Shown here: positions 2,756 to 21,543 of the stretch, piece after piece
Position numbering within the stretch: the first letter of the stretch is position 1
Layout of the letters: each line of letters starts with the position of its first letter
Source of the DNA: Acidobacteriota bacterium
GTDB lineage: Bacteria > Acidobacteriota > Polarisedimenticolia > J045
Length of the DNA stretch: 32,994 bases
Direction of reading: 5' to 3'
Assembly: GCA_003695625.1 (NCBI GenBank)
Contig: RFIB01000129.1
Location: 1 to 32,994 of the forward strand
The notes under the pieces: model-generated
The model's database searches: none
Seen by the model: the letters and a program-made list of their open reading frames with translations, nothing else
Told to the model about the DNA's origin: nothing
Program-made: the position numbers and the translations under genes

Positions 2756-3211
2756 TCAGCCGCGGATCCGCGAGACGGCAAGCCGGTCGGCGTACTCGTT
2801 CCAGGTCGAGCCGTCGTGGGCGCGGATCCATTCGAGCCGGACCCCGGGATGCCGCCGGGCGAGCTCGTAGAGCCGCCGGACCAGGTCGAGATTCTCGACG
2901 GGACCGGTCCTGCGCCGCCATCCGCGCCGCTCCCAGCCCGCGGCCCACTCGTTGATCGTCCGCACGCAGAGCTGGCTGTCCGACCAGATCGTCTCCTCGG
3001 CGTCCTCCGGCAGCATCTCGTAGGCGGCGATCAGCGCGGTCAGCTCCATCCGGTTGTTGGTCGTGTGATCGGCGTGCCCGGAGCGCTCCTCGACGATCTC
3101 GCCGTCGCGGACACGCACCGCGGCCCATCCGCCGGGCCCGGGATTGCCCGAGCAGGCGCCGTCGGTGAACACGCCGCTGTCCGGTCCCGACCGCCGTTCA
3201 GTCCGCGTCAT
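2756..3211 (-). CDS. rnhA: ribonuclease HI
   Basis: FTDGACSGNPGPGGWA, TTNNRMELTALI, IWSDSQLCV and IRAHDGSTWNEYADRLA match the RNase H catalytic blocks (D, E, D, H/D). Confidence 0.9.
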   Translation of the reverse strand: MTRTERRSGPDSGVFTDGACSGNPGPGGWAAVRVRDGEIVEERSGHADHTTNNRMELTALIAAYEMLPEDAEETIWSDSQLCVRTINEWAAGWERRGWRRRTGPVENLDLVRRLYELARRHPGVRLEWIRAHDGSTWNEYADRLAVSRIRG

Positions 3212-5678
3212 CCGTGTCGCGCTCCGCCGGCTCGCGGAACGTCCGCGCCCGGTACGAGCTGACGATCACCGTCAGCGAACTCGCCGGCATCAGCAGCGCG
3301 GCGAGCAGCGGGTGAATATAGCCGGCCATCGCCAGTCCCGCCCCGACGACGTTGTAGACCAGCGAGAACGCGAGGTTGCGACGCACGACGGCCAGCGTCC
3401 GGCGCGCCCCGACGAACAGCTCGTCGAGCAGTCGCAGGTCCGGCCGCGTGACGTACACGTCCGCCGCCGCAAGCGCGGCGTCGCTGCCGCCGTGAATCGC
3501 GACGCCGGCACTCGCCGCGGCGAGCGCCGCCGCGTCGTTGACGCCGTCGCCGACCATCACGACGTGACCCTCGCGCGCCGCGCGCTCGACGACGCGCAGC
3601 TTGTCCTCGGGGCTCGCCCCGCCGAGGGCGTCGGCGGCCGCGATGCCGAGGCGGGCGGCGACGACGCGGACGGTCCGCGGGTGGTCCCCCGAGAGCAGCC
3701 GCACGCGGTAGCCGTGGCGGCGCAGGCGCGCGACCAGCTCCTTCGCACCGGGGCGCAGCGGATCGCCGAGGATCGCCAGCGCCACGATCGCGCCGTCGGC
3801 GGCCACCGCGACCGGCGTGCAGCCCGACGCCGTGGCCCGCTCGATCTCCGGCCCGAACCACTCCGGCGGGGACGAGGAGCAGAACCGGACGACCCATTCC
3901 GGCGCCCCGACGACCAGCGCGCGTCCGTCGACGCGCCCCGAGATCCCGGCACCGGTCGACTCGCGCACCTCGGCCGGCAGCGAGGCGTCGCCACCGGACG
4001 CCGTGTCGGCGCCGGCCAGGGCCCGGGCGATCGGATGCGCCGAGCACGCCTCGAGCCGCGCGACGAGCGGACGGACCGCATCGTCGCCGGCCCAGCGCAC
4101 GACCTCCAGGCGCCCTTCGGTGAGCGTTCCGGTCTTGTCGAGCAGCGCGACGCCCGGACGCGCGACGCGCTCGATCGCGTCGCCGCCCTTGACGAGCAGT
4201 CCGGCGCGCGCCGCACGACCGATCGCCGCGCTGACCGCGAGCGGCGTCGCCAGACCGAGGGCGCACGGGCAGGTGACGATCAGCAGCGCGATCGCGTGGT
4301 CGACCGCCGTGCCGACGCCGGTGCGGACCCACAGCGCAAACGTCGTCGCGGCGAGCAGCAGGACCGCCGCGACGAACCACGCCGACAGCCGGTCGGCGAG
4401 CTGCACGACCGGCGCCTTGCGCCGGGCATGCTCCTCGACCAGCGCGAGCAGCCGGCCAAGGCGGGTGCGCGCGCCGGCGGCGCGCACCTCGAGCACCAGC
4501 CGCCCGGAACGGTCGACCGTCCCCGCCTCGACCTCGTCCCCGGGGCCGACGGGAACCGGCACCGTCTCGCCGGTCATCAGGGCGCGATCGACCAGCGCCC
4601 GGCCCTCGACGACGGCACCGTCGGCCGGGATCGTCTCCCCGGCCCGGACCTCGACCCGCATTCCCGGCACCAGCGACGCCACCGGCACGTCGCGACACGA
4701 ACCGTCGTCGGCGACGAGACGCGCGACGGAGGGCGAGAGCGCGTGCAGCAGCTCCGCGGCCCCCGCCGCGGCCCGCTGCTGACGGCGCAGCAGCCAGCGC
4801 CCGACGAGCAGCAGGAACACGAGCGTGGTCACCGAATCGAAGTAGATCTCGCCGCGCCCGGCGACGGTATTGACCGCGCCCCAGCCGAATCCCGCGGCGA
4901 TGCCGAGGCTGACCGGCACGTCCATGTGCAGCGTGCGGGCCCGCAGTGCGCCGAGCGCCCCGCGGTGGAACACCGAGGCGCACCAGGTCACCGCCGGAAC
5001 CGTGAGCACGAGGCTTGCCCAGCGGAAGAACGTCTCCAGCGCGGGGTCGATCCCCGAGAACATGCCGCCGTAGAGGGCGACGGCGATCAGCATCACGTTG
5101 CCGGCAACGGCGCCGGCCACACCGACGCGCACGAGCAGGCCGCGATCCTCGCGGCGCGCGCGGGCCTCGACCTCCGCACCGAGGAACGGATGCGCGGGAT
5201 AGCCGAGCCGGTCGAGCTGGCGCGCGATCGCCGACAGCCGCGTGCGGGTCGGATCCCAGGTCACCCGCGCCCGCGCGCGGCCCACGTCGAGCCGCACGGC
5301 GACCGCGCCGTCGACCAGCCGCGGCAGCCGTTCGACGAGCCACACGCACGCGGCACAGTGCACGCCCTCGAGGTACAGCTCGCAGGTCAGCAGTCCGCCG
5401 GGCGCCGCCCGGACGTGCAGTTCGGCGAACGCGGGATCGTCGAACTCCTCGTAGGACCGGCCGCTGACCCGCGCCGGGCGCGGCTCCGCACCGCTCGCCT
5501 CGCGCAGCGCGTACCAGCGCGCCAGCCCTTCGTCGTGCAGGATGCCCCACACGGTCCTGCAGCCCTCGCAGCAGAACTGGCGCGGTTCGCCGGCCCGGAT
5601 CAGCCCCGCAGGGACCGGCAGCCCGCAGTGGGCGCAGTCCGCGGCGGTCTGCTCGGCGTCACGGTCAGCGGGGAGCAT
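3198..5678 (-). CDS. ccoI: Cu-translocating P1B-type ATPase, CcoI/FixI-like (cbb3 oxidase maturation)
   Basis: N-terminal Cys-rich domain (CAHCG...FCCEGC), HMA GVHCAACVWLVE, TGETVPVPVG, TCPCALGLATPL (CPC), DKTGTLTEG, HPIARALA and MVGDGVNDAAAL; located in a cbb3 operon. Confidence 0.93.
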   Translation of the reverse strand: MLPADRDAEQTAADCAHCGLPVPAGLIRAGEPRQFCCEGCRTVWGILHDEGLARWYALREASGAEPRPARVSGRSYEEFDDPAFAELHVRAAPGGLLTCELYLEGVHCAACVWLVERLPRLVDGAVAVRLDVGRARARVTWDPTRTRLSAIARQLDRLGYPAHPFLGAEVEARARREDRGLLVRVGVAGAVAGNVMLIAVALYGGMFSGIDPALETFFRWASLVLTVPAVTWCASVFHRGALGALRARTLHMDVPVSLGIAAGFGWGAVNTVAGRGEIYFDSVTTLVFLLLVGRWLLRRQQRAAAGAAELLHALSPSVARLVADDGSCRDVPVASLVPGMRVEVRAGETIPADGAVVEGRALVDRALMTGETVPVPVGPGDEVEAGTVDRSGRLVLEVRAAGARTRLGRLLALVEEHARRKAPVVQLADRLSAWFVAAVLLLAATTFALWVRTGVGTAVDHAIALLIVTCPCALGLATPLAVSAAIGRAARAGLLVKGGDAIERVARPGVALLDKTGTLTEGRLEVVRWAGDDAVRPLVARLEACSAHPIARALAGADTASGGDASLPAEVRESTGAGISGRVDGRALVVGAPEWVVRFCSSSPPEWFGPEIERATASGCTPVAVAADGAIVALAILGDPLRPGAKELVARLRRHGYRVRLLSGDHPRTVRVVAARLGIAAADALGGASPEDKLRVVERAAREGHVVMVGDGVNDAAALAAASAGVAIHGGSDAALAAADVYVTRPDLRLLDELFVGARRTLAVVRRNLAFSLVYNVVGAGLAMAGYIHPLLAALLMPASSLTVIVSSYRARTFREPAERDTDDAD

Positions 5679-6450
5679 GGTGCGGGCAGGCCCCGGCGGC
5701 GTCGCCCTCCTGCACCTGACGCGCCGCCTCGTCGACGGTGGCGGGGACGGCGCGGCCGGGGGCCGGGTCGCGACCGATCATCGGCAGCCGGCCCGCGACC
5801 GCGAACCCGCCGACGACGATCAGCGCCAGCGCGGTGACCACCGGCAGGCGACGCCGCAGGGGGCCTGCCAGCAGCTCGATCCCCGAGCCGACCGCCGCCA
5901 TCACCGGCAGGGTCCCGGCCCAGAACGCCACCATCACCAGCGCCCCGCCGAGCGGGTGTCCCGCTCCCGCGGCGGTGATCACGAACGCCCACAGGAAGCC
6001 GCAGGGCAGCAGCACCGACACGATCCCGACGACGGCGGCGCGCCCGGAGGCGGGCAGCGCGACGAGGCGCCGCAGGACCGCCGCGATCACGCCGCGCAGG
6101 GCGGTCGAGCCGGGCGTCGCGCCGACACGCACGCCGAGCGCGGCGAGCAGGGCCACCGTGCCCCACGCGATGATCAGCACGCCGGCGACGAGCGCCGCGG
6201 CGCGCTGGACGCCCGCGAGCCGGGCACCCGCCAGGTCGAGCGCGGCACCGAGCCCTCCGGCCAGCGCCCCGAGCGCCGCGTACGAGAGCAGGCGCCCGCC
6301 GTTGTAGGCGACATGCGGCGCCGGACGCCAGCGTCGGCCCGGCGTGGCAGCCGATCCGGCGTAGAACGCGACGAACGGACCGCACATCCCGGCACAGTGC
6401 GGGCTGCCGACGAGGGCAGCGAGCAGGACGGCGACGAGCAGCGCGGTCAT
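5665..6450 (-). CDS. sulfite exporter TauE/SafE-family-like membrane protein (often encoded in cbb3/copper-maturation loci)
   Basis: MTALLVAVLLAALVGSPHCAGMCGPFVAFY, HVAYNGGRLLSYAALGALAGGLG, LLPCGFLWAFVITAAGAGHPLGGALVMVAFWAGTLPVM; multiple TM helices. Start set at ATG 6450; the long ORF extension is out of context. Confidence 0.85.
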   Translation of the reverse strand: MTALLVAVLLAALVGSPHCAGMCGPFVAFYAGSAATPGRRWRPAPHVAYNGGRLLSYAALGALAGGLGAALDLAGARLAGVQRAAALVAGVLIIAWGTVALLAALGVRVGATPGSTALRGVIAAVLRRLVALPASGRAAVVGIVSVLLPCGFLWAFVITAAGAGHPLGGALVMVAFWAGTLPVMAAVGSGIELLAGPLRRRLPVVTALALIVVGGFAVAGRLPMIGRDPAPGRAVPATVDEAARQVQEGDAAGACPHHAPR

Positions 6451-6938
6451 CGCAGCACCGGCGGCAGCTCGCGCCGCAGCGTGGTCGAGAACTCCTGCCC
6501 CTTGCGCGAGACGTCGATGTCGAAGATCCACAGGCCGGGACGACGCATCGACAGCTCGGCGACGTGGCGTCCGTCCTCGACGGCCAGCTCGACGCGCTCG
6601 CGACGCGCCGCCCGCGCGTTGTGGAACGTCTCGAGCGCGACGCGGCATCCGTCGAGCACGCGCCCCTCGCGATCCCGGACGACCGCCTCGATCCGCCGGA
6701 AGCCGGGCCGGTCGGGGATCGCGCGCACGTCGAGGTCGACCTGCCAGCCGAGGGCGCGGCTCGCCCGCCGGCGCGCCATCTCCTCGTCCCAGTGGCGCGC
6801 CTTCTCGTAGTAGTTCTCCTCGACGGCGAACGACGGGTCGTTGATCGCGACGGCGACGAGCACGAGATTCGGCACGATCCCCGCGACGAGAATCCCGACG
6901 ACGATCCACGGCCAGTACCAGCCCTTCGCGCGCGGCAC
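6447..6938 (-). CDS. ccoH: FixH-family protein (CcoH-like cbb3 assembly factor)
   Basis: N-terminal TM (KGWYWPWIVVGILVAGIVPNLVLVAVA) then NDPSFAVEENYYEKARHWDEEMARRRASRALGWQ, typical of FixH. GTG start at 6938 preceded by GGAGG. Confidence 0.85.
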   Translation of the reverse strand: MPRAKGWYWPWIVVGILVAGIVPNLVLVAVAINDPSFAVEENYYEKARHWDEEMARRRASRALGWQVDLDVRAIPDRPGFRRIEAVVRDREGRVLDGCRVALETFHNARAARRERVELAVEDGRHVAELSMRRPGLWIFDIDVSRKGQEFSTTLRRELPPVLR

Positions 6939-6940
6939 GG

Positions 6941-8371
6941 TCAGTCCTCCCGGGGCGGAAGCGGACGGAGCGCGAACGGACCGAGCAGGCGATACGGAAC
7001 GTTCCGGCCGAAGTCCACGCCGTCCTCGACGCGGACCACGATGTCCCGGCGCCCGTGCTCGAACACGTCCGCGGGCGTGTTGACGAACAGCACCGCGGTC
7101 CCCGTCTCGCCGGGCGCGACCGTCAGCGGGTTCTGCGGCGAGATCACCTCGGCACCCTCGACCCCGAGCACCGAGATGCGGTAGCGGCGCGGCTCGTCGG
7201 CGCGGTTGGCGATCTTCACGCGCAGCTGGTTGGAGATCCGGCCGTCCTCGAGCGTCGCGTACGGCTCGCCGAGACCGCGCAGGATCCAGACATCGGCCGA
7301 GGCCCGCCGCGCCAGCGACACGCCGAGCAGCCCGAAGACGATCACCAGGATCAGCGGATAGAACACGGTGCGCGGCCGCAGCCACCGCGGCCGCCGGCCC
7401 TCGAACGAGTCCTGCGAGCCGTAGCGCACGAGTCCGCGCGGCTTGCCGATCTGCTCCATGATGCGATCGCAGGCGTCGATGCACTGCGTGCAATGGATGC
7501 ACTCCATCTGCAGGCCGTCGCGGATGTCGATTCCCGTCGGGCATGCGAGCACGCAAGCCCGGCAGTCGATGCAGTCCCCGTAGCGCCCGGCCGGATCGCG
7601 CCGCCGCTGGCCGGCCTTGCCTCGTGGCTCGCCGCGGCGCCGGTCGTATCCGACGATCAGCGACGACTTGTCGAGCAGCACCGCCTGGATCCGGCCATAC
7701 GGACAGACGACCGTGCACATCTGCTCGCGGAACCAGGCGAAGTCGAGGAACATCAGCCCGGTCGTGATCGCCATCGTCGCGAACGCGACGGGATGCTGTG
7801 CCGGGGAACTGCGCACCCAGCGCAGCAACTGCTCGACGCCGACAAAGTAGGCCAGGAACGTGTGCGCGAGAAACGCGGAGATCACGAGGAAGATCGGGTA
7901 CTTGATCGCCCGGCGCAGACCGCCGCCCTCCCGGTCCCGGCGCAGCTGGCCCGAGCGCCCCCCCTCGAGCCATTGCTCGATCGGCCGGTAGAGGAACTCC
8001 ATGTAGACCGTCTGCGGGCAGGCCCAGCCGCACCAGACGCGGCCGAACAGCGCCGTGAGCAGGAAGATCGCCACGATCGCGCCGACCAGCACGAACATCA
8101 GCAGCATCGTCTCGGTGGGCAGGAACGTCGTCCCGAGCACCGTGAAGCGGCGGCGGGTGATGTCGAGCAGGACGGCGGGCTTCCCGCCGACGCGCACGTA
8201 GGGCAGCGCCGTGAACAGCACGATCAGCGCCCAGGCCACCACGAGCCGGCGGCGCCAGAAGCGGCCCTTCTCGCGCTTCGGGCGGATCCAGCGCCGGCTC
8301 CCGTCGACGTTGAGCGTCGAGAGCACGGCCTCGCTGGCCTGCGGGATGTCGCCCGACCCTGCCCGGCTCAT
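6941..8371 (-). CDS. ccoG: cytochrome c oxidase accessory protein CcoG (FixG/RdxA-like polyferredoxin)
   Basis: GRVWCGWACPQTVYMEFLYRPIEQWLEG, CTVVCPYGRIQAVLLDKSSLIVGYD, CIDCRACVLACPTGIDIRDGLQMECIHCTQCIDACD. ATG 8371 has an upstream GGAGG; an alternative GTG start at 8407 would overlap the ccoP stop. Confidence 0.95.
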   Translation of the reverse strand: MSRAGSGDIPQASEAVLSTLNVDGSRRWIRPKREKGRFWRRRLVVAWALIVLFTALPYVRVGGKPAVLLDITRRRFTVLGTTFLPTETMLLMFVLVGAIVAIFLLTALFGRVWCGWACPQTVYMEFLYRPIEQWLEGGRSGQLRRDREGGGLRRAIKYPIFLVISAFLAHTFLAYFVGVEQLLRWVRSSPAQHPVAFATMAITTGLMFLDFAWFREQMCTVVCPYGRIQAVLLDKSSLIVGYDRRRGEPRGKAGQRRRDPAGRYGDCIDCRACVLACPTGIDIRDGLQMECIHCTQCIDACDRIMEQIGKPRGLVRYGSQDSFEGRRPRWLRPRTVFYPLILVIVFGLLGVSLARRASADVWILRGLGEPYATLEDGRISNQLRVKIANRADEPRRYRISVLGVEGAEVISPQNPLTVAPGETGTAVLFVNTPADVFEHGRRDIVVRVEDGVDFGRNVPYRLLGPFALRPLPPRED

Positions 8372-8403
8372 CGCAGTCTGTTCCTCCGGCGCCCGCCCCC
8401 GGC

Positions 8404-9060
8404 TCACGCCGCGGGTCGCGCCTCGGCGGCGTCGGGGACCGCCTCGCCGCCCGCCTCGCCGCCCGGGGCATCCCCGTCCTCGGGCAGCGGCTGGCGCACG
8501 AACAGCTCGCCCTGGGGCGGCTTCGGGTTGGCCGGCGTCGTGCCGCGCAGCGATCCGACGTACGCCGTCACCGCCATGATGTCGACCTCGGACAGCTGGT
8601 TACCCCAGGCGATCATGCCCTTGGTCGGCACGCCGTCGTGGATCGTGCGGTGGATGTCCATCAGGTTGCCGCCGTGCAGCCAGTAGTCGTCGGTCAGGTT
8701 CGGACCGATGTTCCCGCCACCGTCGCGGGCATGGCACTGCACGCACTTGGCGATGAAGATCTTCTCCCCGGCGGAGAGCATCGCCGGGTTCTCCATCATC
8801 TTGCGCAGCACGACCTCGGAGACCTCGCCCAGCGCGAGCAGCTGCTGGCGCTGCTGCTCGTAGTACGCGTCGAGTTCCTCCTGGTACTCGTCTGCCACGA
8901 GCTTTCCCGGCCCGAAGTGGTAGTAGACGATGTACACCGGCGTCGCGATGATCGTGGCCCAGAACAGCCAGACCCACCATCGGGGCAGCGGATTGTCGTA
9001 CTCCTTGATGCCGTCGAACTCGTGCTCGCGCAGCTCGTCACGCACCTCGCGCTGACTCAT
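8404..9060 (-). CDS. ccoP: cbb3-type cytochrome c oxidase subunit III (CcoP), single CXXCH
   Basis: EYDNPLPRWWVWLFWATIIATPVYIVYYHFGPG N-terminal TM signature, plus one CVQCH c-haem domain with IGPNLTDDYWLHGG and GMIAWGNQLS. Confidence 0.92.
   Translation of the reverse strand: MSQREVRDELREHEFDGIKEYDNPLPRWWVWLFWATIIATPVYIVYYHFGPGKLVADEYQEELDAYYEQQRQQLLALGEVSEVVLRKMMENPAMLSAGEKIFIAKCVQCHARDGGGNIGPNLTDDYWLHGGNLMDIHRTIHDGVPTKGMIAWGNQLSEVDIMAVTAYVGSLRGTTPANPKPPQGELFVRQPLPEDGDAPGGEAGGEAVPDAAEARPAA

Positions 9061-9252: not shown

Positions 9253-9266
<14 letters not shown>
9057..9266 (-). CDS. ccoQ: CcoQ-like small membrane subunit of cbb3 oxidase
   Basis: 69 aa with a single TM (AALLLFVAVFVTIAIHTF) followed by basic and acidic residues; located between ccoNO and ccoP with overlapping ends. 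Confidence 0.7.
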
Positions 9267-11504
<2,238 letters not shown>

Positions 11505-11508
<4 letters not shown>

Positions 11509-11900
11509 GCCGTCTCCGCATCCAGCGGCAGCGCCTCGATGGCACCGCTCTCCACCAGTTCCAGGACCCCCTGACCGTCCCCCAGCGCACCGCGGGGGAT
11601 GAACACGATCTCGGACTCGTCGGCCAGCACGACGTCGCACGCCGCGGGCTCGCCGAGAGCACGGGGCGGCGGCAGCACCAGCGGACGCCCCGGATGTGCC
11701 CGCCGCAGGACACCGCGTCCGTCCGGCCCGCGCGGACCGATGCGGACGGCGCCGTCGACGACGACGAACAGGCTCAGCGGCACCTGCCCGGCGTAGACCA
11801 GCACCTGGCCGGCCGGGCGGCGCGCGCGCAGTGCGTCCGGCAGGGCGGCGAGCCGCTCGCCGGCGGGAAGGTCGTCGTGTCGCGCGGCCCGGTCGTCCAT
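11505..11900 (-). CDS. small cyclic-nucleotide-binding-like (cNMP fold) protein without an HTH
   Basis: 131 aa: PAGQVLVYAGQVPLSLFVVVDGAVRIG...CDVVLADESEIVFIPRGAL resembles a CRP/FNR sensory beta-roll, but the C-terminus lacks a helix-turn-helix. The stop overlaps the ccoNO start. Confidence 0.6.
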
Positions 11901-11975
11901 CGCGGCCTCGATCCCGTGGCGGGCCAGTCTAGGGGCCCGCGGGCCGGCGGGGCTTGACGGTCGTCACGGGCAGAC

Positions 11976-11989
11976 TTGATCGAGATCAA
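11976..11989. promoter_or_regulatory. FNR/ANR-type box TTGATCGAGATCAA
   Basis: Perfect match to the TTGAT-N4-ATCAA consensus (11976-11989; palindrome extends to cTTGATCGAGATCAAg) between the divergent cbb3 operon and an FNR-like gene. Confidence 0.85.
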
Positions 11990-12047
11990 GTCCGGGCGGA
12001 GAATGCCCGGGCCGCACCGCGGCCGGGGAGAGGACGGAGGCACGCGC

Positions 12048-12779
12048 GTGGACCGCGACAGCGACGAGCTGCGACCGCCCGCCGGCAACTGCTTCGTCTG
12101 CCAGGCCCGCGAACGCACCGAATGGTGCCGGCTGGGCGAGGACGAGCTCGGTCTGCTCAACCGGCACAAGATCGCCAACCGGTACGAACCGGGCCAGGTG
12201 ATCTTCTACCAGGGCAACCCGTGCCTCGGAATCCACTGCATCGAGGAGGGCACGGTCGCGCTGCGCAAGGCGGCGTCGGACGGCCAGGAGATGGTCGCCC
12301 GCCTGTTCCACGCCGGCGACACGCTCGGCTACCTCGCCTACTTCGCGGAGACCGGGTACACCGGGACCGCCGTGGCGGTCACGCCCGCGCACGTCTGCTT
12401 CATCGAGCGCACGGCGGTCCGCGAGCTGCTCGCCCGCAACCCGGCGCTCGGCCTCGCGTTCCTGCGCCGCACCGCGGAAAACCTGCGCGATGCCGAGGAC
12501 GCCCGTCTCCGCGACGCCGCGCTGCCGCTGCGGATCCGCCTCGCGCACCTGCTGCTCGTGTTCAAGGACCGGTTCGGCACCGCCGACGAGGACGGCACGA
12601 TCTCGATCGACCTGCCCCTGTCCCGGCAGGACATCGCCGCGATGCTCGGTGTCCGGCCGGAGTCGCTCTCGCGGGCGATCCGCCAGCTCGAACGGTCGGG
12701 GGCGGCCCGCTTCTCGCGCCGGCTGGTCCGGGTTCCCGACCTCGATCTGCTGTTCGACCAGCTCGAGGAAGCCGGCTGA
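12048..12779 (+). CDS. fnr: CRP/FNR-family transcriptional regulator, FNR-like with N-terminal Cys cluster
   Basis: CFVCQARERTEWC N-terminal cluster, cNMP-fold region, Cys in HVCFIERTAVREL, C-terminal HTH LPLSRQDIAAMLGVRPESLSRAIRQLERSG. GTG start at 12048 with upstream GGAGG. Confidence 0.85.
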   Translation: MDRDSDELRPPAGNCFVCQARERTEWCRLGEDELGLLNRHKIANRYEPGQVIFYQGNPCLGIHCIEEGTVALRKAASDGQEMVARLFHAGDTLGYLAYFAETGYTGTAVAVTPAHVCFIERTAVRELLARNPALGLAFLRRTAENLRDAEDARLRDAALPLRIRLAHLLLVFKDRFGTADEDGTISIDLPLSRQDIAAMLGVRPESLSRAIRQLERSGAARFSRRLVRVPDLDLLFDQLEEAG

Positions 12780-17915: not shown

Positions 17916-19595
17916 ATGAGCTATCCGATCTGGGATGTCCCCGCCCCCGGCCTGCTGATCGCCGGGATCGCGATCCTCCACGTGTACATCTCCCACTTCG
18001 CGGTCGGCGGCGGGCTGTTCCTGGTGCTCGCCGAGCGGCGGGCGCGGCGCACCGCCGACGCGGGAATGCTCGCCTACGTCGAATCGTTGAGCCGGTTCTT
18101 CATCCTGCTCACGCTGGTGCTCGGCGCGGTGACCGGCGTCGGCATCTGGTTCACGATCGGCCTCGTCTCGCCGATGGGCACGTCCGCCCTGATCAACGCC
18201 TTCGTCTGGGGCTGGGCGATCGAGTGGACCTTCTTCGTGGCCGAGATCGCGGCGGCGATCGTGTACTACTACGGCTGGCGCCGGCTCGACGCGAAGACCC
18301 ACGAGGCGGTCGGGTGGATCTACTTCGTCGCCGCGTGGATGAGCCTGGTGATCATCAACGGGATCCTGTCCTTCATGGCGACGCCCGGCCGCTGGCTCGA
18401 GACGCGATCGTTCTGGGACGGGTTCTTCAACCCGACGTACGTCTCGTCGCTCGTGCTGCGCACGCTCGTCGCGGTCGGCATCGCCGGCCTGTTCGCGCTG
18501 TTCGCGGCGGCCCGCCTCGGCGACGGTGAACTCAAGCAGCGCATCGCGCGCTGGACGGCGACGCGCTGGATCCTTCCCGCCGCGATCGGCGTGCCGCTGT
18601 GCCTGCTGTGGTATCTCGGCGCGGCGGCAGGGGCCGGGATTCCCGTCGCCGAGATCTTCGGCGCGACGTCGAGCGGACCGGGCGCGCTCGTCGCGAGCGT
18701 GTTCGCGTCAGATCATGCGAGCGGCTATCCGCCGGCCCAGCGGGCGGCGCTCGTCGCGGCGATCGCCTATCCGGCGATCGTGGTGCTGACCCTCGCCCTG
18801 CTGTGGCTCAGGCCGCGCAACTACGGCCGGCTGGTCACCGCGCTGATGCTGCTGTTCGGCATCGCGGGGATGGGCGCCGGCGAATGGGCCCGCGAGGACC
18901 TGCGCAAGCCGTGGATCATCGGCGGCTACATGTACGTCAACGGGGTCCGCGTCCCGCCGCCGGCAGGCGCGACCGGACCGGCCGCCGAGGCGGCGCGGCG
19001 CGCCCCCGATCCGTTCCGGATCGACGTCCTGAACGAGCGCGGGCTGCTCGAGTCGTCGGTGTGGCTCGCGGTGCCCGCCGGCGCCGAGCCGGAGGACCCG
19101 GCCGACCGGCTCGCGCTCACCGGACGGCAGGTGTTCCGCGGGCTGTGCTCGACGTGCCACACGGTCGACGGCTACCTGGCGATCCGGCCGCTCGTCCGCG
19201 GGCAGAAGGTCGCCGCGCTCGAGCGGCTGCTCGAACGGCTCGACGCCCACCGGCAGCGCCGGATGCCGCCGTTCGCCGGCACGGACGAGGAGCGGCACGC
19301 GCTGGCCGTCTGGCTCGCGCGCCTCGGCGGTGACGAGACCGCTGGGCGCGAGGTCGCGCCGGCCGCGACGACGGGGCACCCCGGCGCCGCCCTGTTCGAG
19401 GACCAGTGCTCGCTGTGCCACGCGGCGGATGCCGACTTCCCGATGGCCGAGCTGGTCGCGGGCCGCGGCGCCGACGAGCTGTACGACATCATCGGCCGTC
19501 TGCCAGAGATCAACGACATGATGCCCGCGTTCGAGGGTACGGACGAGGAACGCCGCGCTCTCGCGGAGTACCTCGCGAGCCTGGAGGCGGAATGA
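17916..19595 (+). CDS. cytochrome bd-superfamily subunit-I-like membrane protein fused to two C-terminal cytochrome c domains
   Basis: TM1 His (ILHVYISHFAVGGGLF), VWGWAIEWTFFVAEIAAAIVYYYGW (CydA-like Glu-bearing helix), GEWAREDLRKPW (CydA GRQPW-like), then CSTCH and CSLCH haem c motifs. Confidence 0.8.
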   Translation: MSYPIWDVPAPGLLIAGIAILHVYISHFAVGGGLFLVLAERRARRTADAGMLAYVESLSRFFILLTLVLGAVTGVGIWFTIGLVSPMGTSALINAFVWGWAIEWTFFVAEIAAAIVYYYGWRRLDAKTHEAVGWIYFVAAWMSLVIINGILSFMATPGRWLETRSFWDGFFNPTYVSSLVLRTLVAVGIAGLFALFAAARLGDGELKQRIARWTATRWILPAAIGVPLCLLWYLGAAAGAGIPVAEIFGATSSGPGALVASVFASDHASGYPPAQRAALVAAIAYPAIVVLTLALLWLRPRNYGRLVTALMLLFGIAGMGAGEWAREDLRKPWIIGGYMYVNGVRVPPPAGATGPAAEAARRAPDPFRIDVLNERGLLESSVWLAVPAGAEPEDPADRLALTGRQVFRGLCSTCHTVDGYLAIRPLVRGQKVAALERLLERLDAHRQRRMPPFAGTDEERHALAVWLARLGGDETAGREVAPAATTGHPGAALFEDQCSLCHAADADFPMAELVAGRGADELYDIIGRLPEINDMMPAFEGTDEERRALAEYLASLEAE

Positions 19596-20710
19596 TGCCT
19601 GCGCCGCTGTCGATCGCGCAGATCGCGCCCCCCGACCCGCTGCCGCTGCCCGCACCCGGGTGGCTGCTCTGGTCGCTGCTGATGCTGACGTTCTTCCTGC
19701 ACATGCTGGCGATGAACTGGGTCCTCGGCGGCTCGATCATCGGCGCGGTGACGCGCGTGTCCCGCCGCACGAGCCCCGAGGCCGATGTGCTCGTCGGCCT
19801 GCTGACACGCTCGATGCCGTCGGCGGTCGCCGCGACGATCACCCTCGGCGTCGCGCCGCTGCTGTTCGTGCAGGTGCTCTACGGACGGCTGCTGTTCACC
19901 AGCTCGATCCTGATGGGCTGGTTCTGGCTGTCGGTGATCCCGCTGCTGATCATCGCCTACTACGCGGTGTACGCGCTCTCGTTCCGCGGGGACCGCCTCG
20001 GAGGACTCGAGGCCCCGCTGTCGTGGCTCGCCGCGCTGTGCTTCATGGCGATCGGGTTCCTCTACAGCAACAACATGACGCTGATGCTGCGCCCCGACTC
20101 GTTCGTCTCGCGCTACCTCGCGGACGGCCGCGGGTTCCACCTCAACCTCGACGACCCGACGCTCGTTCCGCGCTATCTGCACATGCTGCTCGGCGCGCTG
20201 GCCACGTCGGGGATGGCGATCGCGCTGATCGGCGCGCTGCGTCGCTCGCTCGACGCCCGCGCGGCGCGCTACCTGATGCGCTGCGGGAGCCTGTGGTTCG
20301 TGATCCCGACCGCGATCAACGTGCTGTTCGGCCTGTGGTGGCTGATCGCGCTGCCGCGGGAGACGATGCTGCGCTTCATGGGTGGCAGCGCCGTGGCCAG
20401 CGGCGCGCTGGCGATCGGCCTGCTCGCCGCCCTGAGCGCACTGCTGATGATGGCGATGGCGCTCGGCCGCGAGGACCCGCGCGGGCTGATCCGCGGCGGC
20501 GCGTGGTCGCTCGGACTGACCCTCGTCGCGATGGTGCTGATGCGCGACCAGGTGCGGCAGGGCGCGCTCGAGGCGGCGGGTTTCGAGCCGTCGCCGTGGG
20601 TCGAGCCGCAGTGGGGCCCGATCGTCCTGTTCGTCGTCCTGCTCGTCGCGGCGCTCGCGGCGGTCGCGTGGATGGTCCGCGCGATCGCGCGCCCCGCATC
20701 GACGTCGTGA
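19595..20710 (+). CDS. second cytochrome bd-superfamily-like membrane protein, paralogous to the preceding CydA-like domain
   Basis: TM1 His (FFLHMLAMNWVLGG), parallel helix layout, DPTLVPRYLHMLLGALATSGMAIAL and VLMRDQVRQGAL align by eye with NPTYVSSLVLRTLVAVGIAGLFALF and GEWAREDLRKPW of the upstream protein. TGATG overlap with the upstream stop (alternative ATG 19592). Confidence 0.65.
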   Translation: MPAPLSIAQIAPPDPLPLPAPGWLLWSLLMLTFFLHMLAMNWVLGGSIIGAVTRVSRRTSPEADVLVGLLTRSMPSAVAATITLGVAPLLFVQVLYGRLLFTSSILMGWFWLSVIPLLIIAYYAVYALSFRGDRLGGLEAPLSWLAALCFMAIGFLYSNNMTLMLRPDSFVSRYLADGRGFHLNLDDPTLVPRYLHMLLGALATSGMAIALIGALRRSLDARAARYLMRCGSLWFVIPTAINVLFGLWWLIALPRETMLRFMGGSAVASGALAIGLLAALSALLMMAMALGREDPRGLIRGGAWSLGLTLVAMVLMRDQVRQGALEAAGFEPSPWVEPQWGPIVLFVVLLVAALAAVAWMVRAIARPASTS

Positions 20711-21543
20711 GCGACGATCCGGCCCCGGGAGGGCGCGCCGACGGGAGCGCGCCGCTGTTCGACAGCCACTGCCATCTCGACTTCCCGTCGCTGGCGGACG
20801 ACCTGGACGGTGTGCTCGAACGTGCCGCCGCCGCCGGCGTGTCCCGCATCGCGACGATCGGCGCCGGCCGGGCGCTCGATTCGGCACCGGCCGCGATCGC
20901 GCTCGCGCGCCGGCATCCCGGACGCATCGTGGCCAGCGTGGGGCTGCACCCGCACGACGCGCGGCTCGCCGACGACGACACGTTCGACCGGCTCGAGGCG
21001 TGGGCCCGCGACCCCGCGGTCGTCGCCGTCGGCGAGACCGGCCTCGACTTCCACTACGACAACTCGCCGCGCGACATCCAGCAGGATGTCTTCCGCCGCA
21101 CGATCGCCCTCGCGCGCACGGTCGGCAAGCCGCTGATCATCCACACGCGCGAGGCGCCGCGCGAGACGCTCGCGATCCTCGCCGAGGAGTGCGCGCAGGA
21201 CGTCGGCGGCATCATCCACTGCTTGAGCGAGGACGCCGGGTTCGCCCGTGCCGCGCTGGAGCTGGGCTTCGTCAGCTCGTTCAGCGGCATCGTCACGTTC
21301 CCCAACGCACGGCGCGTCCACGAGGCGGCGCGCGCACTGCCCGACGACGCGATCCTCGTCGAGACCGACGCGCCGTTTCTCGCTCCGCAGCCGGTGCGCG
21401 GCCGGCGCAACGAGCCGGCATACGTCGCCCACGTCGCCGCGGCGATCGCGGACCTGCGCGGCGTCTCCGAGCAGGCCGTGCGGCGGCTGGCGTGGGACAA
21501 CGCCTGCCGCGTCTACCGGCTCGACCCGGCCGCTTCCGCCTGA
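20707..21543 (+). CDS. tatD: TatD family metal-dependent DNase
   Basis: FDSHCHLDFP, SVGLHPHDA, AVGETGLDFHYDNSP, LIIHTREA, IIHCLSED, LVETDAPFLAP. GTG start 20707 overlaps the preceding stop (GTGA). Confidence 0.93.
   Translation: MSDDPAPGGRADGSAPLFDSHCHLDFPSLADDLDGVLERAAAAGVSRIATIGAGRALDSAPAAIALARRHPGRIVASVGLHPHDARLADDDTFDRLEAWARDPAVVAVGETGLDFHYDNSPRDIQQDVFRRTIALARTVGKPLIIHTREAPRETLAILAEECAQDVGGIIHCLSEDAGFARAALELGFVSSFSGIVTFPNARRVHEAARALPDDAILVETDAPFLAPQPVRGRRNEPAYVAHVAAAIADLRGVSEQAVRRLAWDNACRVYRLDPAASA

Follow-up and report, generated by a model that had tools for sequence, protein, structure and literature searches.

The window analysed here, a stretch of 32,994 nucleotides from an Acidobacteriota bacterium (assembly GCA_003695625.1, contig RFIB01000129.1), contains two adjacent genes, A and B, one of which joins a CydA-like membrane domain to a cytochrome c domain. 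This raises the question of what kind of complex the two genes encode, from which donor it would take its electrons and what it would reduce.

A coupled gene pair of the cytochrome bd superfamily

The two genes lie on the same strand.

17916..19595, plus strand: gene A, a CydA-like membrane domain with a C-terminal dihaem cytochrome c domain (559 aa, ATG start)
19592..20710, plus strand: gene B, a CydA-type paralogue with nine transmembrane (TM) helices (372 aa; its start codon overlaps the stop codon of A)

The first-pass annotation had described the genes as translationally coupled through TGATG. Indeed, they overlap by four bases, ATGA, with A ending in ...GAA TGA and B beginning with ATGATG at 19592, and the junction reads TGATG if the second ATG of B serves as the start codon. 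Among relatives such tight spacing is the rule: of 53 complete pairs, all but one have a gap of -8 to +60 nt between the stop of A and the start of B. In the phylum, 88 of 396 sampled genomes had a relative of A and 89 had one of B, so that about 22% carry the pair; together with the tight spacing, these counts argue that the association of A with B is not due to chance. On the far side of the pair, the GTG start of a TatD-type nuclease gene (window 20707-21543) overlaps the stop codon of B.

The protein encoded by A matched Pfam family PF01654 (CydA) over residues 17-198 (E 2.9e-13, 49.6 bits; cut-off 26.2 bits) and Cytochrome_CBB3 in two stretches, with CXXCH motifs at residues 411 and 498, in agreement with the earlier description of a CydA-like domain fused to two such motifs. 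The PF01654 search proposed at that stage thus succeeded for A and failed for B, which matched no Pfam or NCBIfam family. Profile-to-profile comparison with hhalign related both proteins to CydA: A against CydA reached 98% in local alignment over 214 columns and 99.3% in global alignment over 322, A against B 97.7% and 98.9%, respectively, and B against CydA 91.5%, compared with less than 1.5% for an unrelated haem-copper (COX) subunit used as a control. The possibility that B is a CydB was rejected, its match to CydB being 14.8% (local) and 1.5% (global), below those to A and CydA. A weak match between A and CydB (69.9% local, 0.5% global) was read as similarity of the CydA and CydB folds, not membership.

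The AlphaFold models had a mean pLDDT of 90.0 for A and 94.6 for B, and Foldseek matched them to CydA and CydB chains of solved bd oxidases with E values of 4e-6 to 3e-2 (A) and 2e-6 to 6e-3 (B); the top match was a CydA chain in both cases, and no protein outside the bd oxidases was found at comparable significance for either model. A sequence search of the PDB with the profile of B gave no match, and that with the profile of A mainly retrieved c domains. A tree of the membrane parts placed each of four groups, A, B, canonical CydA and a further bd-like group, on one side of a well supported branch. The further group (L167-L171), a clade of the phylum separate from A and B, consists of frames of about 600-680 aa with an N-terminal extension and no CXXCH; the frame of L171 has 332 aa. 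By the hhalign and Foldseek matches, both subunits have the bd-superfamily fold that had been proposed for them, and by hhalign and the tree B is a CydA-type paralogue, as the first reading of the sequence had it.

Gene A keeps the dihaem-site residues of CydA and lacks its quinol site

The membrane part of A comprises about residues 1-330 and has eight TM helices. Lysine and arginine residues number 14 in the would-be cytoplasmic loops versus two in the would-be periplasmic loops that link helices, and by this positive-inside distribution both termini would lie outside and the c domain would be periplasmic. There is no TM9; the c domain sits where CydA would have this helix. The CydA residues used below for comparison (His19, Glu99, Glu107, His186 and Glu445-x-x-R-Q-P-W) carry E. 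coli numbers.

17979..17981, plus strand: codon of H22 in A, aligned with the H19-type dihaem-site ligand of CydA (50/50 sequences)
18222..18245, plus strand: codons 103-110 of A, in which E103 and E110 align with CydA E99 and E107 (50/50)
18459..18461, plus strand: codon of R182 in A, invariant, adjoining L181 at the position of the CydA b558 ligand His186
18882..18914, plus strand: codons 323-333 of A, EWAREDLRKPW, the counterpart of CydA E445-x-x-R-Q-P-W at the end of TM8
19146..19160, plus strand: first c-haem site of A, CSTCH, residues 411-415 (M450 invariant)
19407..19421, plus strand: second c-haem site of A, CSLCH, residues 498-502, in most, not all, relatives

In the motif that closes TM8, E327 is present in 49 of 50 sequences and R330 in all 50, and each named residue of E327-x-x-R330-K-P332 is kept in at least 47. 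His27, where CydA has a proline, occurs in 48 of 50. The dihaem-site ligands are also kept in the homologues from Methylosinus and Agrobacterium, and in that from Thermus with Asp in place of E110. A dihaem oxygen site in A is the natural reading of this alignment. As regards the c domain, M450 is likely to be the sixth ligand of the first c haem. The dihaem c module put forward earlier holds for A of the window and is not universal, relatives carrying one, two or three CXXCH motifs.

The claim that the quinol site is absent was borne out. In the profile alignment with CydA, the Q-loop region is missing from A, and a simple pattern search found no quinol-site motif in its membrane part. The same pattern was found in 14 of 23 canonical CydA proteins of the phylum, including the CydA of the window's own genome, and once among relatives of A (L098), in a stretch thought to lie in the c domain. 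At the position of the b558 ligand His186, relatives of A mostly have F, L, A, M or I. Across the aligned relatives, no histidine is conserved in the membrane part of A after residue 150, and several have no histidine whatever in that half. Without a histidine at the His186 position, A is unlikely to bind a b558-type haem in the way that CydA does.

Two conserved histidines in gene B

19700..19702, plus strand: codon of H37 in B, aligned with A H22 and CydA H19 (46/46 sequences)
20180..20182, plus strand: codon of H197 in B, aligned with the CydA b558 ligand His186 (45/46)

Both dihaem-site glutamates are missing from B in the alignment. From these residues we infer that a low-spin b haem would be held by B. 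The pair has in common with canonical CydAB the fold, the H19-, E99-, E107- and E445-type residues and the TM1-8 topology of A, whereas A differs from CydA in having neither Q-loop nor His186 nor TM9 and a c domain instead, and its partner is CydA-like, not CydB.

Place within the bd superfamily

The first-pass annotation had pointed to a published classification of the superfamily. Such a scheme does exist: PMC13189123 and PMC10839748 give the division of Murali et al. into qOR, OR-C and OR-N, PMC13189123 describes the quinol site as the mark of the qOR branch, and PMC11707229 refers to published OR-C profiles. The OR-N enzymes of Nitrospira and Nitrospinota are hypothesised to consist of CydAA' pairs, with cytochrome c as the probable donor (PMC10839748), and going by that description they resemble A-B in having two CydA-type paralogues in place of CydA plus CydB.

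The OR-C branch, named by Murali, Gennis and Hemp in 2021, would share with A-B the absence of a quinol site. Its members reportedly carry c-haem motifs. On these two grounds we file A-B as a probable member of the predicted OR-C family and not as a new kind of complex. Text searches of the literature found mentions of the OR-C family and no description of it. The family to which the pair belongs is widespread, predicted and apparently unstudied. What could be novel is that B is given the low-spin haem, an assignment made from aligned residues.

Distribution and gene neighbourhood

A congener of the source organism (G303) carries the pair, with 73% identity in A. Its gene B (L034, C45:2910-3950) contains a single in-frame TAG, and another contig carries a further fragment of B; a sequencing error, a contig end or a broken copy could each account for this. 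The 80 loci named in this study come from Acidobacteriota, Myxococcota, Zixibacteria, Calditrichota, Ignavibacteriota, Krumholzibacteriota, Verrucomicrobia, Armatimonadota, Chloroflexota and a Geobacter MAG, and across them B normally follows directly after A. Tandem copies of A (A-A-B), each with one CXXCH, were seen at L092:4933-7528 and L116:4966-7559.

Pairs are also borne on plasmids of Thermus thermophilus (WP_244455000/WP_244454999), Methylosinus sp. C49 and Agrobacterium tumefaciens LN-1, where they are annotated solely as cytochrome c or c-type cytochrome plus hypothetical protein or cytochrome C. They share the two-gene order and the ligand residues of the window pair but have one c-haem motif and 29-39% identity in A. 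Directly downstream of the pair, the two alphaproteobacterial plasmids carry RegB/RegA-type two-component genes (L222:10703-12928 and L223:10757-12545), the histidine kinase and response regulator being nearest to the NCBIfam models ActS/PrrB/RegB and ActR/PrrA/RegA of redox regulators, below the curated cut-offs; one of these two loci has an extra cytochrome c gene. The Methylosinus pair adjoins methanobactin and FeoB genes, which would suit a copper-free oxidase, in this one case. Outside A, B and their mirror-strand frames, the commonest gene family is shared by no more than about 10 of the 80 loci, and gene context therefore hints little at the donor.

Haem-copper oxidases were found in 58 of 67 pair-bearing genomes. 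Five of the remaining nine (G064, G120, G129, G282 and G368) have no intact CydAB either, which leaves the pair as the only oxygen reductase candidate found there; the search covered haem-copper oxidases and CydAB, and all five genomes are incomplete to some degree, three of them being at least 91% complete. Some carriers of the pair may be anaerobes. The window's own genome encodes a canonical CydAB (contig C319) and has three haem-copper oxidase genes, among them that of a cbb3 oxidase within the window, so here the pair would be one of several branches.

The window itself includes a cbb3 oxidase operon on the minus strand (3201-5678, 6450-8471, 8407-9060 and 9256-11640). Its CcoN and CcoO are fused in one protein of 795 aa, which scores above the cut-off of NCBIfam NF011053; the operon also encodes a CcoP-like cytochrome, a copper P-type ATPase and, in the 6450-8471 frame, a FixH domain. 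According to a paper of 2023, Acidobacteriota have no cbb3 oxidases (PMC10564751). Between this operon and the A-B pair, genes for Crp/Fnr-type regulators lie on both strands (window 11508-12776), and the best NCBIfam model for the frame at 11976-12776 is FnrL, below cut-off.

A predicted copper-free oxidase fed from the periplasm

Oxygen reduction with cytochrome c appears most likely, given the conserved dihaem site, the missing quinol site, the periplasmic c domain and the genomes in which the pair is the sole candidate. We put the probability at about 0.68 that the two proteins make up a terminal oxidase of the bd superfamily, free of copper and of two subunits, that takes its electrons from a periplasmic c-type cytochrome, or another periplasmic donor, and not from quinol. 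In the proposed scheme, a soluble cytochrome c would pass electrons to the c haems of A, from where they would reach the dihaem site of A either directly or via a low-spin b haem held by B. Oxygen would be reduced at the dihaem site with protons drawn from the cytoplasm, and charge would consequently be separated across the membrane. The fuller version, in which a copper-free cytochrome c oxidase has its low-spin b haem moved from CydA to B (at His197) and c haems on the catalytic subunit, is more tentative, and we would sooner expect one of its particulars to fail than all to hold.

Alternatively, the complex might connect cytochrome c with the quinone pool by electron transfer, for instance in reverse electron flow, and reduce no oxygen. 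Such a role with c-type cytochromes has been proposed for bd-like_3 of Nitrospira (PMC6606698), and most carriers of the pair do have other oxidases; yet A has neither Q-loop nor quinol motif, no other quinone site is recognisable, and the strict conservation of the dihaem-site residues also speaks against a mere shuttle. We consider it unlikely. Slightly less probable again is a cytochrome c-fed detoxification system whose dihaem site would mainly reduce nitric oxide or peroxide in place of oxygen. Canonical bd oxidases are reported to take part in NO and O2 detoxification (PMC10839748), and regulation of the RegB/RegA type would fit that role too, but in the window and on the three plasmids examined no NO or nitrite genes were seen to adjoin the pair, nor do the 80 loci offer a recurrent partner family besides A and B. 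That A is an ordinary quinol oxidase with accessory c domains, as its membership of the CydA superfamily and the ExxRKPW at the end of its TM8 (compare ExxRQPW of CydA) might suggest, is very improbable, because A lacks the region that holds the quinol-binding loop in CydA and the motif is absent in the family.

Implications

To conclude, the reading we prefer is an oxidase of the bd superfamily fed by cytochrome c. If its fuller version with the haem in B also holds, the pair would represent a third electron route to an oxygen site, next to that of haem-copper oxidases (cytochrome c with copper) and that of cytochrome bd (quinol). The pair is widespread among uncultured phyla, and the cultured relatives found are annotated as no more than cytochrome c plus hypothetical protein, so that estimates of aerobic potential based on canonical CydAB or COX1 can overlook it. 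The homologues of Thermus thermophilus, Methylosinus and Agrobacterium open the way to a direct test. Should the complex prove to be a cytochrome c oxidase, respiration through cytochrome c would not require copper, and quinol would not be the necessary donor for chemistry of the bd type.
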